Source of the DNA: Saccharopolyspora thermophila
GTDB lineage: Bacteria; Actinomycetota; Actinomycetes; Mycobacteriales; Pseudonocardiaceae
Length of the DNA: 64,000 nt
Reading direction: 5' to 3'
Assembly: GCF_014646075.1 (NCBI RefSeq)
Contig: NZ_BMMT01000019.1
Span: forward strand, 1 to 64,000
How positions within the stretch are numbered: the first letter of the stretch is position 1; the number at the start of each line of letters is the position of its first letter. Shown piece by piece: positions 56,824 through 64,000 of this stretch. The position numbers and the translations under genes were made by a program. Below the pieces are notes generated by a model that saw only the letters and a program-made list of their open reading frames with translations, ran no database searches and was not told the origin of the DNA.

Positions 56824-57058
56824 CCCGCGGCGGACGCCGCGGGTTACCGGCGGCCGCCGGCAGGCCACCGCGCTGGCGCCTGGAGGTCAACCTCCGCATC
56901 CTCGATCTTTCAGACCAGGGTGGTCGCTGCGACGCGGTGAGCCTTCCCGGCTTCGCGATGCCCCGCGTGCCATGCGGGGCACCGCGTGCCGTGCAGGCGG
57001 ACCCGCCTGGCTCGTGCGTGGGTACCCGTGGGTCAGGACCGATGGGAAGGATCCGCTC

Positions 57059-58117
57059 GTGACGTCATCCGGCGTGCCGAGGATGCGGGCGTGGAGCGTG
57101 CGCGCACCAGGCGCGATCGAGACCGGGCCGTTGAGCTGCCAAGAGCGGCCCGTGCCGACTCCCGCGCGGGACGAACTGCTGGTCGAGGTCCTGGCGTGCG
57201 GGGTGTGCCGGACCGACCTGCACGTCAGCGAGGGTGACCTGCCGGTGCACCGCGAGCACGTGGTGCCCGGCCACGAGGTCGTCGGCCGGGTCGTCGCGCA
57301 CGGCGAGGACGCCACCACCTTCCGGGTCGGCGAACGCGTCGGTGCGGCCTGGCTTCGCCACACCTGCGGGGAATGCGCGTTCTGCCGCCGGGGCGACGAG
57401 AATCTCTGCCCACGATCCCGCTACACCGGATGGGACGCCGACGGCGGTTACGCCCAGTACACCACCGTGCCCGCGGCCTACGCCTACCGACTGCCCACCG
57501 AGATCGACAGCGTCGCACTCGCGCCACTGCTGTGCGCGGGCATCATCGGCTACCGCGCACTCCGCCGGGCGTCGCTGCCGGAAGGTGGCCGACTGGGCCT
57601 CTACGGGTTCGGCGGCAGCGCCCACCTGTGCGCACAGGTTGCGCTCGCGCAAGGCGCCCGAGTCCACGTCCTCACCCGCGGCGAAGCGGCACAGCGACTC
57701 GCCCTCCAGCTCGGCGCGACCTCCGCGCGCGAGGCCTACGACACACCGCCCGAACTCCTGGACAGCGCGATCCTGTTCGCCCCGGTGGGAGACCTGGTTC
57801 CGGTCGCCCTGCGCGCGCTGGACCGAGGCGGCGTGCTCGCCATCGCCGGAATCCACCTCACCGACATCCCCGCGCTGAACTACGAAAGGGAGCTGTTCTA
57901 CGAAAAGCAGCTGCGCAGCGTCACCTCGAACACCCGCCAGGACGGGCAGGAATTTCTCGAACTGGCCGCCCGCCACGGGGTGCGGGCCACGACCCACGCC
58001 TACCCGCTGGGGGCAGCGCAGCAAGCGCTGCAGGACCTCAAGGCGGGCCGCTTCGACGGTGCGGCAGTGCTCGTCAACGAAGACGCGGCACCCGGCCCGG
58101 GCGCGACCGGCGCCTGA
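57059..58117 (+). CDS. Zinc-dependent alcohol dehydrogenase (MDR family)
   Basis: The 352-residue protein has catalytic zinc motifs CGVCRTDLH and GHEVVG, a structural zinc loop [15 protein letters not shown] and a nucleotide site [11 protein letters not shown]. It resembles the AdhA group of bacterial zinc alcohol dehydrogenases. GTG 57059 with GGAAGG about 9 bp upstream is chosen; ATG 57083 is an alternative. It precedes a small frame and a DsbA-like gene. It lies 3 kb from the quinoprotein alcohol dehydrogenase but no shared operon is visible. The substrate is unknown. Confidence 0.86.
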
Positions 58118-58348: not shown

Positions 58349-58998
58349 TCGCCAGGAACAACGCCACCCCGGCTCGTGTTGACCCGGGCATGACCGCCAC
58401 GTTCTCCGTCACCTGGGACTACCGGTGCCCGTTCGCCCGCAACGCGCACGAGCACCTGCTCACCGGTCTGGCCGCGGGCGCCGACTGGCAAATCCGCTTC
58501 CTGCCGTTCTCGCTCGGCCAGGCACACGTCGAGCCGGGCGAGACCAGCGTCTGGGACGAACCCGCGCAGGACACCGGGATCATCGCCCTGCAGGCCGGTG
58601 TCGTCGTCCGGGACGAGTTCCCGGAGCAGTTCTCCGGGGTGCACCGCGCCCTGTTCGCGGCTCGCCACGACAAGGGGCTGCACCTGGAGGACCGATCCGT
58701 GATCCACCATGTCCTCACCGAGGGTGGGGTCCCCGCCGACGCGGTGTTCGCCCGCATCGACGACGGATCGGCTTTGCAACGGGTGCGCACCGAGCACGAG
58801 CAGTTCGTGGCCTCGCACAACGTGTGGGGCGTGCCGACCTTCATCGCCGACGACCAGGCGGTGTTCGTCCGGCTGATGAAACGCGCACCGGTGGGCGCCG
58901 ACGCGGCCGAGTCCGTCCGGACGATCGAACGCGTGGTCGACCTGCTGACGGAGTGGACCGACCTCAACGAGTTCAAGCGCACCTCCGTCCCCCGCTGA
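58345..58998 (+). CDS. DsbA-family thioredoxin-fold protein (FrnE / HCCA-isomerase-like)
   Basis: The 217-residue protein has a DsbA-like thioredoxin fold with helical insertion: FSVTWDYRCPFARNAHEHLL at the N-terminus and SHNVWGVPTFIADDQAVFV with the cis-proline loop near the end. The active site reads CPFA rather than CxxC, so a classical dithiol oxidase is unlikely; a thiol-conjugate reaction with mycothiol is possible. ATG 58345 overlaps the preceding small frame and follows GGAG; ATG 58390 is the alternative with no ribosome site. Confidence 0.75.
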   Translation: MIARNNATPARVDPGMTATFSVTWDYRCPFARNAHEHLLTGLAAGADWQIRFLPFSLGQAHVEPGETSVWDEPAQDTGIIALQAGVVVRDEFPEQFSGVHRALFAARHDKGLHLEDRSVIHHVLTEGGVPADAVFARIDDGSALQRVRTEHEQFVASHNVWGVPTFIADDQAVFVRLMKRAPVGADAAESVRTIERVVDLLTEWTDLNEFKRTSVPR

Positions 58999-61079: not shown

Positions 61080-61550
61080 ATGGCGACCACCGCGAAGGAA
61101 CGGGAGCTGTCGGCGTTGGTGAGCGAGATCGGCCTGGACAGGCAGAACGGGGCGATGCTGGGGCGCCTGGTGACCCATGGGAACCTCGGGTACGCCCAGG
61201 AGGAGTCCGGCGGCCGCATGCGCGCCCAGATCCGGATCCCGCCCGACGAGCTGGTCTGGGATCCCGCGATCCTGATCATGCCGCACGGCGGCGAACTCGA
61301 ACTTGAGATCATCAACGATGACCAGAACACGCACTGCGCGCTCCTCCCGAGCAACGGCGACAGCAAGTTCATCTGGTTGCCGATCCACTCTCGGGGACGC
61401 GCCGTGCTCGATCTCGACGGCCCGGGCTGCTACTGGTACAGCTCCCCCGTTGGCAACGACGAAGGCCGGGGTCTCACCGGTGTGATCGCCGTGCTGGGAG
61501 ACGCCCCGCAAGAGGCCCGCCTGGACCGCCCGGACCAGCCACGACCCTAG
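61080..61550 (+). CDS. Cupredoxin-like protein of the quinoprotein operon
   Basis: The 156-residue protein looks like a single beta-barrel cupredoxin: IPPDELVWDPAILIMPHGGE, then EIINDDQNTHCALLPS (position of the first copper histidine) and DGPGCYWYSSPVG (position of the copper cysteine). The histidine and methionine that normally follow the cysteine are absent, so a type 1 copper site may be lost or altered. No signal peptide is present. ATG 61080 has AGGAGG 9 bp upstream. It directly precedes the quinoprotein dehydrogenase and may be its electron acceptor, a metal carrier or a structural partner. Confidence 0.65.
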   Translation: MATTAKERELSALVSEIGLDRQNGAMLGRLVTHGNLGYAQEESGGRMRAQIRIPPDELVWDPAILIMPHGGELELEIINDDQNTHCALLPSNGDSKFIWLPIHSRGRAVLDLDGPGCYWYSSPVGNDEGRGLTGVIAVLGDAPQEARLDRPDQPRP

Positions 61551-61563
61551 GAAGGAGCCGGTG

Positions 61564-63249
61564 ATGACGGAATACGTGGATGCGGGGGAGGCCGTCAACC
61601 AGGCGTCCTTGAGTGGTGTGGTCGGCACCGCGCCGCCGGTGGCCCGCGACGTCACGTACGACCGCATTCTCCAGGCCCGTCAGGAACCGCAGAACTGGCT
61701 GACCTACTACGGCACCTATGACGGGCAGCGGTACAGCTCGCTGGACCAGATCAACCGGGACACCGTGCGGCGCCTCACACCCGCGTGGGTGTTCCAGTCC
61801 GGCGCGGCGGGACTGCACGCGGGCCCGTCGACGTACTCGTTCGAAGCCGCCCCGCTCGTCGTGGACGGCATCATGTACGTCTCGGGCTGGGACGGCTACG
61901 TGTGGGCCGTCGACGGCCGGACCGGCCAGGAGCTGTGGCGGTACAAGCACGCGATCCCCTACGACACGACACTGTGCTGCGGCAACGTCAACCGCGGAGT
62001 CGCGGTGGCGAACGGGAAGGTCTTCGTCGTCACGCTGAACGCCCATGTGCTCGCGCTGGACGCGACCAACGGCAACTGCCTCTGGGACGCCACGTACGGT
62101 GACGTGCGGGCCGGGGAGAGCGCCACGGTCGCACCGCTGGTGGTGAAGGACCTGGTCGTGGTGGGCAGCTCCGGCGGCGAGTTCGGCGTCCGCGGCCACC
62201 TCGACGCCTTCGACCAGGAGACCGGACGGCACGTCTGGCGCCGGTACACCGTGCCGAAGCCCGGCGAGCCCGGGGCCGAGACGTGGCCGGACGGCCCGGC
62301 CTGGACGCGGGGCGGCGGGAACTGCTGGGTCACGGGCACCTACGACGCGGAGCTGAACCTCATGTTCTGGGGTACCGGCAACCCGGCGCCGGACTTCGAC
62401 GGAGGGGTGCGCGAGGGCGACAACCTCTTCACCGACAGCGTCATCGCCGTGGACCCGGACAACGGCGAGATCCGCTGGCACTACCAGTACAACCCGCACG
62501 ACCTGTGGGACTACGACAGCACGATGGAGAACATCCTGTTCGATCAGGATGGGCGCAAGCTGCTCGCGCACTTCGACAAGAACGGGTACTTCTACGTGCT
62601 CGACCGCACGAACGGCGAGCTGGTCCGGGTGGCTCCCTTCGTCGAACGGATCACGTGGGGCGAGGTCGACCCCAACGGCAAGATCACGCCCAAGGTGTTC
62701 CCGGACGAGGAGGGCAAGGAAGTCCACTTCTGGCCCGGCCCGGCCGGGGGCAAGGAGTGGACGCACGCGGCCTACAGCCCGAAGACCCAGCTGTTCTACG
62801 TCCCGGTACAGGACGTGGGCGCGAAGGTCACGCGGCGGCGCCGGGAGTTCAGGGAGAGCATCCCCTACTGGGGCGCGAGCGTCACCGTGGACTCCGACGA
62901 CATGCGGGGGGCGCTGGCGGCGTTCGACCCGTCGACCGGTCGGCAGGTGTGGAGCTACCCCAACGACGTGCCGATGTGTGCCTCCGTGCTGGCCACCGGC
63001 GGTGACCTGGTGTTCGCCGGCGAGCCCACCGGCGAGTTCGACGCGTTCGACGCGGAGACCGGTGAGCTGCTGTGGCAGTTCCAGACCGGATGCGGCCACC
63101 ACAGCAGCCCGACCACCTACAGCATCGACGGCAGGCAGTACCTCGCCGTGCCGGTCGGGTGGGGCGCCTGGGTCGAGGGGTTCCTGCCCTCGATGCTGGG
63201 GGCGCCGCACGGTGACGCGCTCTTCGCGTTCGCGTTGGCGCCGGAGTAG
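61564..63249 (+). CDS. PQQ-dependent alcohol dehydrogenase, lanthanide-type (DYD motif), without signal peptide
   Basis: The 561-residue quinoprotein is a methanol/ethanol-dehydrogenase-type eight-bladed propeller: NWLTYYGTYDGQRYSSLDQI at the N-terminus, vicinal Cys138-Cys139 (TTLCCGN), GESATVAPLVV with the metal-binding glutamate, FWGTGNPAPDF and the catalytic aspartate in LWDYDS. Asp316 is the base and Asp318, two residues on, is the extra carboxylate that marks lanthanide-dependent (XoxF/ExaF-like) enzymes. There is no haem motif. ATG 61564 is 6 bp after AAGGAG; no Sec or Tat signal precedes the mature-like sequence, although family members act outside the cytoplasm. The substrate alcohol is unknown. 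Confidence 0.87.
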   Translation: MTEYVDAGEAVNQASLSGVVGTAPPVARDVTYDRILQARQEPQNWLTYYGTYDGQRYSSLDQINRDTVRRLTPAWVFQSGAAGLHAGPSTYSFEAAPLVVDGIMYVSGWDGYVWAVDGRTGQELWRYKHAIPYDTTLCCGNVNRGVAVANGKVFVVTLNAHVLALDATNGNCLWDATYGDVRAGESATVAPLVVKDLVVVGSSGGEFGVRGHLDAFDQETGRHVWRRYTVPKPGEPGAETWPDGPAWTRGGGNCWVTGTYDAELNLMFWGTGNPAPDFDGGVREGDNLFTDSVIAVDPDNGEIRWHYQYNPHDLWDYDSTMENILFDQDGRKLLAHFDKNGYFYVLDRTNGELVRVAPFVERITWGEVDPNGKITPKVFPDEEGKEVHFWPGPAGGKEWTHAAYSPKTQLFYVPVQDVGAKVTRRRREFRESIPYWGASVTVDSDDMRGALAAFDPSTGRQVWSYPNDVPMCASVLATGGDLVFAGEPTGEFDAFDAETGELLWQFQTGCGHHSSPTTYSIDGRQYLAVPVGWGAWVEGFLPSMLGAPHGDALFAFALAPE

Positions 63250-63278
63250 CCCCGGGAACCGGAGAGGAGGTGCCGGAT

Positions 63279-63389
63279 ATGGACGCTGTCACCGCTCGCG
63301 CCGAGCTCCTCGAGTGGGAGACCCCGGAGTTCGAGGACATCGGGTGCGCGGCCGAGGTGACGATGTACGTCGCGCAGTTGGAGGACTAG
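63279..63389 (+). CDS. pqqA: PQQ precursor peptide PqqA
   Basis: A 36-residue peptide starts at ATG 63279 with AGGAGG 9 bp upstream. It contains EVTMY with Glu26 and Tyr30 in the E-x3-Y spacing that PqqE cross-links to build PQQ. The N-terminal part (ETPEFEDIG) resembles the recognition region of other PqqA peptides. It lies 29 bp after the quinoprotein gene and 79 bp before pqqC. A six-residue tail (VAQLED) follows the tyrosine. Confidence 0.88.
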
Positions 63390-63468
63390 CAGATCCACGG
63401 GCGCCGGGGCTTCCCGGTGCCCGTGCGGTCGCCTGGGGCGCACAAGCGGTGGAGGTGCGGCTGGACCC

Positions 63469-64000
63469 ATGACGACGACGCCCCTCGACACCGACGGCTT
63501 CGTCGCGGCGCTGCGTGCCCAGTCGCGGCGCTACCACGACCAGCACCCGTTCCACGTCAGGATGAACGCGGGGCAGCTGAGCCGCCGGCAGATCCAGGGC
63601 TGGGTGGCCAACCGCTTCTACTACCAGCAGAACATCCCGCGCAAGGACGCCGCCATCCTCAGCAACTGCCCCGACGTCGGCGTACGGCGGCGATGGGTGC
63701 GTCGCATCCTCGACCACGACGGCACCGCCGATCGCGAGGGCGGCATCGACGCGTGGTTGCGCCTGGCCGAGGCGGTGGAACTGACCCGCGCGGAGGTCTG
63801 CGACGAGCGCCACCTCGTGCCCGGCGTGCGCTTCGCCGTCGACGCCTACGTCACGTTCGCCCGCACCCGGCCCTGGGTCGAGGCGGTGGCGTCGTCGTTG
63901 ACCGAGCTGTTCGCACCGGACCTGATGGCCGAGCGGCTCGCCGCGTTCGAGCGCTGCTACCCCTGGATCGACCGCGACGGGCTCCGCTACTTCCGCACCC
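63469..64000 (+). CDS. pqqC: PQQ synthase PqqC (N-terminal part, cut by window end)
   Basis: The first 177 residues of an expected 240-250 are present. PqqC signatures are readable: [14 protein letters not shown], then [29 protein letters not shown] and DGLRYF. PqqC performs the final eight-electron oxidation and ring closure without a metal. ATG 63469 has GGAGGTG 13 bp upstream. The usual order pqqABCDE is altered: no pqqB lies between pqqA and pqqC; D and E may follow beyond the window. Confidence 0.93.

Follow-up and report, generated by a model that had tools for sequence, protein, structure and literature searches.

Alcohol dehydrogenases that use pyrroloquinoline quinone (PQQ) are known from outside the cytoplasm. 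XoxF, the lanthanide methanol dehydrogenase that structure 4MAE presumably represents, is periplasmic, and the quinoprotein ethanol dehydrogenases 6zcv/6zcw and 1flg are exported and use cytochrome c acceptors. The locus considered here lies in a 64,000-nucleotide stretch of Saccharopolyspora thermophila DNA (NZ_BMMT01000019.1, positions 1 to 64,000; contig C19 of a 5.36 Mb assembly), hereafter the window. It encodes a PQQ dehydrogenase (DH; 61564..63249, plus strand, ATG start, 561 aa) that scores 630.6 bits against TIGR03075, above the curated cut-off. Directly before it lies the gene of a small protein of predicted cupredoxin fold (CUP; 61080..61550, plus strand, 156 aa), a member of the ‘MSMEG_3727 family PQQ-associated protein’ by both TIGR04339 (268.5 bits, cut-off 75) and PF23509 (267.7 bits, cut-off 27). 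Neither protein has a recognisable leader. Comparison with leader-bearing orthologs suggests that an exported dehydrogenase/blue-copper pair has probably been relocated to the cytosol, with CUP now serving as a copper-free partner.

Missing leaders in an actinobacterial clade

In the window, the reading frame upstream of DH runs back to a stop that falls within CUP, and the only start in it is the codon directly ahead of the ATG, a GTG. Upstream of CUP a stop occurs after seven codons, with no start in between. Both short starts are preceded by ribosome-site-like sequence, AAGGAG for DH and GAGGAGG for CUP. Leaders were judged by eye and by hydropathy over 12 residues, which in the N-terminal region and upstream frame peaks at 1.21 for DH and 0.78 for CUP; by the same measure, 15 of 16 exported orthologs score from 2.16 to 2.93 and the other 1.87. 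The initial annotation had reported that neither protein carries an export signal, allowing for an upstream in-frame start that might restore one. The low hydropathy bears out the former, and for both genes the latter is excluded, as no upstream start can give a leader.

By the same means, the actinobacterial clade shows no recognisable leader in any of 79 distinct DHs or 80 distinct CUPs. These were drawn from 96 leaderless DH rows compared over a 250-residue stretch and 99 CUP rows compared over 90 residues. Many of the DH rows are partial (55 distinct DHs are full-length), and nine distinct ones were read from a tblastn start that misses the first residues, their starts being inspected separately. 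Gaps affect several columns of one DH row, and one CUP is truncated, so that the counts of readable residues given below can fall under these totals. In a second set (38 DHs and 40 CUPs), hydropathy over the first 45 residues reaches maxima of 1.36 and 1.57, below the exported minimum of 1.87. The leaderless start is found in Pseudonocardiaceae, Streptomyces, a member of the Nocardiopsidaceae, a Solirubrobacterales metagenome-assembled genome (MAG) and family f58 (same phylum, outside the class). Judged by sequence, the first observation is thus confirmed as real and as part of a clade-wide pattern.

Exported pairs were sought in 84,980 species genomes with the DH query via six short peptide patterns, which yielded 30 loci; because only loci matching one of the six peptides are detected, this sample is not exhaustive. 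CUP directly precedes DH in 23 of the 30, comprising 15 actinobacterial loci, all leaderless, and eight loci from other phyla (L053-L060; Nitrospira moscoviensis, Armatimonadota, Gemmatimonadota and a Proteobacteria MAG with two loci). The other seven hold more distant dehydrogenases with no CUP hit, and five of these were used as outgroups. An extra search of the phylum of the Gemmatimonadota MAG gave matches in 4 of 249 genomes, two of them over the cut-off and one new, which supplied a ninth exported pair (L099). The corresponding search in the phylum of N. moscoviensis matched 1 of 148 genomes, N. moscoviensis itself, and found no further lipoprotein copy. In all nine pairs, from eight genomes, CUP and DH alike carry a hydrophobic leader that terminates in a lipobox-like Cys, those of Nitrospira ending ...LIAGC and ...ATADC; in L059 and L060 the DH start chosen by script lay too far downstream, and the leader is visible in the raw frame. 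Exported homologues, which the initial annotation had named as evidence that could overturn its reading, therefore do exist by sequence signs, but they bear leaders that the actinobacterial clade is without. One of these loci, in a Gemmatimonadaceae MAG (L058:819-1866), has two tandem CUP genes ahead of DH.

In a DH tree of 52 rows, rooted with six outside dehydrogenases of which five have leader-like N-termini, the 37 leaderless DHs form one clade with a Shimodaira-Hasegawa-like approximate likelihood ratio support of 99, and the window DH groups among those of Saccharopolyspora. The unrooted CUP tree is split into leaderless and exported proteins by a single branch with support of 100. Loss on one branch is the simplest reading of these trees. 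Within a sample of the phylum, TIGR03075 exceeds its cut-off in 9 of 396 genomes at ten places (the window, L145-L152 and one via L074), all leaderless and beside CUP. As a control, 20 of 29 fetched loci were inspected, including the eight leaderless, CUP-linked loci L145-L152. Among weaker matches of the same phylum outside the clade, hydrophobic leaders are present at L153, L155, L158, L160 and L162 and a twin-arginine-like leader at L156; L159, L163 and L164 are ambiguous, and L154, L157 and L161 are partial. These leadered relatives indicate that the phylum is able to export such enzymes. With the window genome included, TIGR04339 is found in 2 of 394 genomes of the class sample, 91 of 297 of the family (90 over the cut-off) and 17 of 396 of the phylum (11 over the cut-off). 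Several genomes hold two CUP genes, and in the plasmid collection CUP was found in one record only.

The copper positions of CUP and the active site of DH

AlphaFold models of the window CUP (predicted local distance difference test score 77.9) and of the Nitrospira CUP (79.5) both match cupredoxin folds, and the former is predicted to form the cupredoxin beta-sandwich; the models are poor over the first ~30 residues and the C-terminal 16. The best match of the window model is auracyanin (6kol, E 2.1e-6) by Foldseek and a CopA metal-binding domain (4f2f, Z 13.6, root-mean-square deviation 2.1 over 96 residues) by VIA-align. The structure jobs used 36 of the 68 CUP rows in hand at the first round and 25 at the second. 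In the PDB, no credible sequence relative of CUP was found (best E 0.034).

All nine exported CUPs carry His-Cys-His-Met at the type-1 copper positions. The leaderless CUPs share the fold of blue-copper proteins, but three of the four ligands are missing in 76 of 79 readable proteins (His-Ser-Asp-Leu) and two in the other three (His-Ser-Asp-Met). In the window these positions are His85, Ser122, Asp127 and Leu132. Only His85 (61332..61334, plus strand) keeps a ligand, as it does in all 80 distinct leaderless and all nine exported CUPs. The site of the exported Cys and second His ligands corresponds to residues 122-128 (S-P-V-G-N-D-E; 61443..61463, plus strand), where the columns of Ser122, Asp127 and Glu128 hold Ser, Asp and Glu in 79/79 readable leaderless CUPs and Cys, His and Ala (eight) or Leu (one) in the nine exported ones. 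Asn79, Asp80, Asp81, Thr84, His85 and Asn92 are invariant in 80/80 leaderless proteins, and Ser122, Gly125, Asn126, Asp127 and Glu128 in 79/79. Given these ligand losses, CUP is unlikely to act as a blue-copper electron acceptor, and that role was rejected. The earlier description of the protein as cupredoxin-like is right for its predicted fold, but does not extend to the copper site.

Solo leaderless CUPs, with no DH in ~17 kb, occur at L114:8308-8763 and L137:8780-9214, and their host genomes also hold a normal CUP-DH pair (L113, L138). The neighbours of these two solo genes are conserved between them, but give no hint of a role.

The active-site residues described for DH in the initial annotation are present. 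The vicinal Cys138-Cys139 (61975..61980, plus strand) is kept in 79/79 distinct leaderless and 9/9 exported enzymes. Asp316-Tyr317-Asp318 (62509..62517, plus strand) forms the lanthanide-type Asp-Tyr-Asp (DYD) motif, and Asp318 gives DH the Asp two residues past the catalytic Asp that is typical of XoxF, PedH and ExaF; the export signal of that type is absent in the window, and none was seen in the clade. Conservation among the leaderless DHs extends to Glu206, Trp255 and Asn273 (79/79), Asp316 and Asp318 (78/78 readable) and Arg348 (77/78). The columns of Glu206, Asn273, Asp316 and Asp318, which alignment with solved enzymes indicates to be the metal and catalytic ligands, are thus filled in the window DH and invariant among readable leaderless copies. 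The DYD motif suggests that DH may use a lanthanide; the earlier assignment to the lanthanide type holds as far as the motif goes, although the exported orthologs vary at this last position (Asp in five, Ser in three, Glu in one).

The proposed alignment with XoxF was carried out against 4MAE, with which DH has the vicinal Cys and DYD in common, but not a second Cys pair. In the window the columns of that pair are Trp390 (62731..62733, plus strand) and Gly419 (62818..62820, plus strand). Both align with Cys in 4MAE, where the pair has the same spacing of 29, and both are Cys in 9/9 exported orthologs. Cys390 is found in 0/78 readable leaderless DHs, which instead combine an aromatic residue at 390 with Gly at 419 (78/78). 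In known enzymes a Cys pair of the 390/419 type forms a disulfide, as does the vicinal pair. The leaderless DHs have new Cys at positions 472 (63/77), 254 (59/79), 227 (56/79), 309 (32/78) and 323 (28/78), of which the window enzyme has 254 and 472.

PQQ genes and gene neighbourhoods

DH is followed on the same strand by pqqA (63279..63389, plus, 36 aa; TIGR02107 37.5 bits, cut-off 20) and pqqC (63469..64000, plus), of which the first 177 codons lie in the window and the end at contig position 64161; the whole pqqC gene scores 320.9 bits against TIGR02111, above the curated cut-off. The spacers between CUP and DH, DH and pqqA, and pqqA and pqqC are 13, 29 and 79 bases. This gene set is as the initial annotation had given it, and coordinates and profile scores confirm it. 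The further claim of a self-contained operon does not hold: pqqA and pqqC stand here without the remainder of pqqA to pqqE, pqqB being on contig C9 and pqqD, pqqE and a second, longer pqqA on contig C16. Within this second PqqA (about L006:10095-10240, minus strand), two PqqA-like W..PEFE stretches precede a single EITMY core; this doubled form has similar counterparts in Saccharopolyspora spinosa (L040) and S. rosea (L042), the latter with a short form alongside. DH is the sole TIGR03075 match detected in the genome, and a paralog that might fill an exported role was rejected on this basis.

Just past the window and convergent with pqqC lies a PF01699 sodium/calcium-exchanger protein (NCX; contig C19 64167-65315, L005:6167-7315, minus strand), a candidate transporter of Ca2+ or lanthanide ions (Ln3+). 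By eye, the region upstream of the operon holds a zinc alcohol dehydrogenase-like protein at 56972-58117 and, in the frame that ends at 58998, a DsbA/FrnE-like protein bearing a CPFA motif.

Across the clade, 57 loci were mapped (40 newly fetched and 17 others), 55 of them with DH, and PqqC-like matches occur in 36 of the 55. Neighbours were counted in the 47 loci with at least 5 kb upstream and at least 7 kb downstream, leaving out the two without DH and eight with short flanks, including that of the window. Matches were taken anywhere in the flanks, up to ~8 kb off for NCX; many of the loci are related, and the associations are stated without a formal chance model. On this footing, the 47 flanks contain katG in 26, NCX in 21, an MntP-like gene in 16, NCX or MntP in 37, PqqE in 29 and HPS, a formaldehyde-fixation gene, in six, and one has none of these. 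Wherever katG is present (29 loci), it lies upstream on the same strand, and a regulator gene accompanies it in all 29 as well as in one further locus; two regulators tested carry a LytTR domain. One KatG and one HPS tested were both above NCBIfam cut-offs, while the tested NCX and MntP proteins matched their Pfam domains yet fell below NCBIfam cut-offs. At seven loci from the family of the window (L108, L112, L117, L126, L129, L133 and L139), katG-CUP-DH stands amid genes of the ribulose monophosphate (RuMP) cycle type. There tblastn finds HPS and Rpe in 7/7, RpiB in six and Fba in four, with one example of each checked by profile, which suggests a methanol module.

A proposed move to the cytosol, its rivals and known systems

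From what was observed, namely gene content, leaderlessness, the ligand and Cys differences, the single clade and the neighbour associations, we infer where the pair works, which way the change went, how electrons passed in the ancestor, and the acceptor, metal and substrate. Ancestrally, the two proteins would have been exported and anchored as lipoproteins, the PQQ alcohol dehydrogenase giving its electrons to a blue-copper cupredoxin. Both leaders would then have been lost on the branch leading to the actinobacterial clade, so that the pair would now fold and work in the cytoplasm, where a copper acceptor would presumably be misplaced, and the copper ligands are gone. PQQ synthesis is cytoplasmic; a cytosolic DH could take the PQQ made in its own compartment and would need no export of it. 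DH would turn an alcohol into the aldehyde by means of a hard metal ion (Ln3+ or Ca2+) bound by Glu206, Asn273, Asp316 and Asp318. The electrons would no longer pass to copper, but most likely to O2, either directly or via a cytosolic carrier, an acceptor to which the katG linkage points by way of H2O2; in many species this peroxide would be handled by the linked KatG. CUP retains the invariant Ser122, Asp127 and Glu128 and still precedes DH; its most likely role is that of a partner without redox function, perhaps as a subunit, in docking, or in loading a cofactor or metal. By association, the linked cation transporters point to metal handling, and the RuMP linkage in a few Pseudonocardiaceae to formaldehyde, and hence to methanol as one substrate there. 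The earlier proposal of a cytoplasmic quinoprotein thus gains strong comparative support from the leadered orthologs, the lost copper ligands and the lost Cys pair, which make that location probable.

Several points weigh against this explanation. The vicinal Cys pair forms a disulfide in known enzymes, and its retention throughout is unexpected in a reducing compartment; the change in total Cys is modest (4 to 9 in the 55 full-length leaderless DHs, 4 to 6 in the exported ones). The 390/419 pair is also missing in five of six outgroup rows and in 6zcv/6zcw, so that its absence by itself proves little and lends support without deciding the matter. All evidence on the lipoprotein group comes from nine pairs, and their DHs are held together by a support of only 70 and may be paraphyletic. 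The losses of leaders, ligands and Cys map to one branch, which makes them a single correlated event with no independent repeats. Of the 47 flanks, 21 have no katG, and the one copy in the window genome is on contig C21 rather than beside the operon, making the link to H2O2 indirect here. The best HPS match in the window genome reaches 29.9 bits against a cut-off of 200, leaving a methanol/RuMP role unsupported for this strain, for which it was rejected. Lastly, mycobacteria are known to export some enzymes that have no leader.

A more specific proposal, compatible with relocation, is that CUP now binds a hard metal where its ancestor bound copper, and so serves DH as a chaperone or sensor of Ca2+ or Ln3+. 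The soft ligands were exchanged for invariant oxygen donors and did not drift, the residues concerned being Asn79, Asp80, Asp81, Thr84 and His85 and the group Ser122, Asn126, Asp127 and Glu128; the NCX or MntP-like genes in most flanks would fit such a role. The same invariance may stem from a protein interface, however, and the annotated ions of these transporter families are Ca2+ and Mn2+ rather than Ln3+, with the two tested proteins below NCBIfam cut-offs. The proposal is a tentative one, with the balance tilted against it. A broader conjunction would have a cytosolic lanthanide-quinoprotein system take up Ln through NCX- or MntP-type transporters, with the copper place of CUP rebuilt as an Ln3+/Ca2+ site that loads or senses the metal, DH acting as an O2-linked alcohol oxidase, KatG removing H2O2 and some Pseudonocardiaceae feeding formaldehyde to RuMP; taken as a whole, it is speculative and rather doubtful.

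Leaderless secretion of the kind known from mycobacteria raises the alternative that the pair is still exported, by a SecA2-like route, as a hitch-hiker on a substrate of the twin-arginine translocation (Tat) pathway or by another secretion system, and acts at the cell surface. The intact vicinal Cys pair would suit such a setting. Export does not, however, account readily for the loss of the blue-copper ligands in 79/79 readable CUPs and of the XoxF-like Cys pair in 78/78 DHs, nor for the gain of new Cys. PQQ genes and katG lie alongside, the product of the latter usually being cytosolic, and by eye no conserved third exported protein was noticed in the neighbour clusters, in which Tat motifs were not searched. 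Leaderless export is thus unlikely. That the pair is a decaying, non-functional remnant of an exported system would explain why several features were lost together, but the active-site residues are kept, leaderless CUPs share 57 to 79% identity with that of the window, pqq genes still accompany the pair at many loci and CUP is present twice in several genomes, all of which make decay highly improbable. The reading of DH as a conventional exported PQQ dehydrogenase whose start was misread has practically no chance of being correct, refuted as it is by the lack of a leader-giving upstream start, the ribosome-site-like sequence at the short starts and an N-terminus conserved as leaderless clade-wide.

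Relocation to the cytosol would set the window pair apart from solved enzymes that it otherwise resembles. The three best solved matches to DH are the quinoprotein ethanol dehydrogenases 6zcv, 6zcw and 1flg (E 4.5e-113 to 2.3e-97), and the scores are 380 to 382 bits against 6zcw/6zcv and 312 bits against 4MAE. With 6zcv/6zcw, DH shares the Asp at +2 as well as the lack of a 390/419 pair. The PQQ propeller, vicinal Cys and DYD are shared with 4MAE, which alone of the two has that pair. Neither 6zcv/6zcw nor 1flg is known to have a CUP partner.

By family, the closest named system is MSMEG_3726/MSMEG_3727 of Mycolicibacterium smegmatis, part of the PQQ cassette MSMEG_3721-3727, whose last member gave TIGR04339 and PF23509 their name. 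Both family and cassette are named in PMC3023750 and PMC6529628, the relevant passages of which contain nothing on location or copper of the M. smegmatis proteins; a passage of PMC6529628 adds that the need for mycofactocin excludes an overlapping PQQ-dependent function in growth of M. smegmatis on ethanol under the conditions used. TIGR04339 is thus an already named family, and its relocation appears undescribed in the literature searched: among the matches listed from open-licence PMC papers, none describes the leaderless pair, its loss of copper or a PQQ alcohol dehydrogenase of the cytosol. A relocated pair may also be relevant to an early report of PQQ from an actinobacterium with methanol, Nocardia sp. 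239, which a passage of PMC5606694 credits to Hazeu 1983.

The nearest relatives of the whole arrangement are the lipoprotein pairs, which have the same two-gene order as the window and, in L053-L060, DHs 58 to 66% and adjoining CUPs 44 to 53% identical to those of the window. In the fetched flanks of these eight loci, several of them short, pqqC and pqqE were not found. If relocation is correct, a family-wide move would break the rule that such enzymes work outside the cytoplasm, and would imply cytosolic use of PQQ, possibly of a lanthanide, together with the need for a new electron acceptor. The lipoprotein pairs differ from the window in having leaders on both proteins, all four type-1 copper ligands in CUP and the extra Cys pair in DH. 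Exported and leaderless orthologs thus form a natural before-and-after pair, in which dependence on compartment, copper and disulfide is directly testable.

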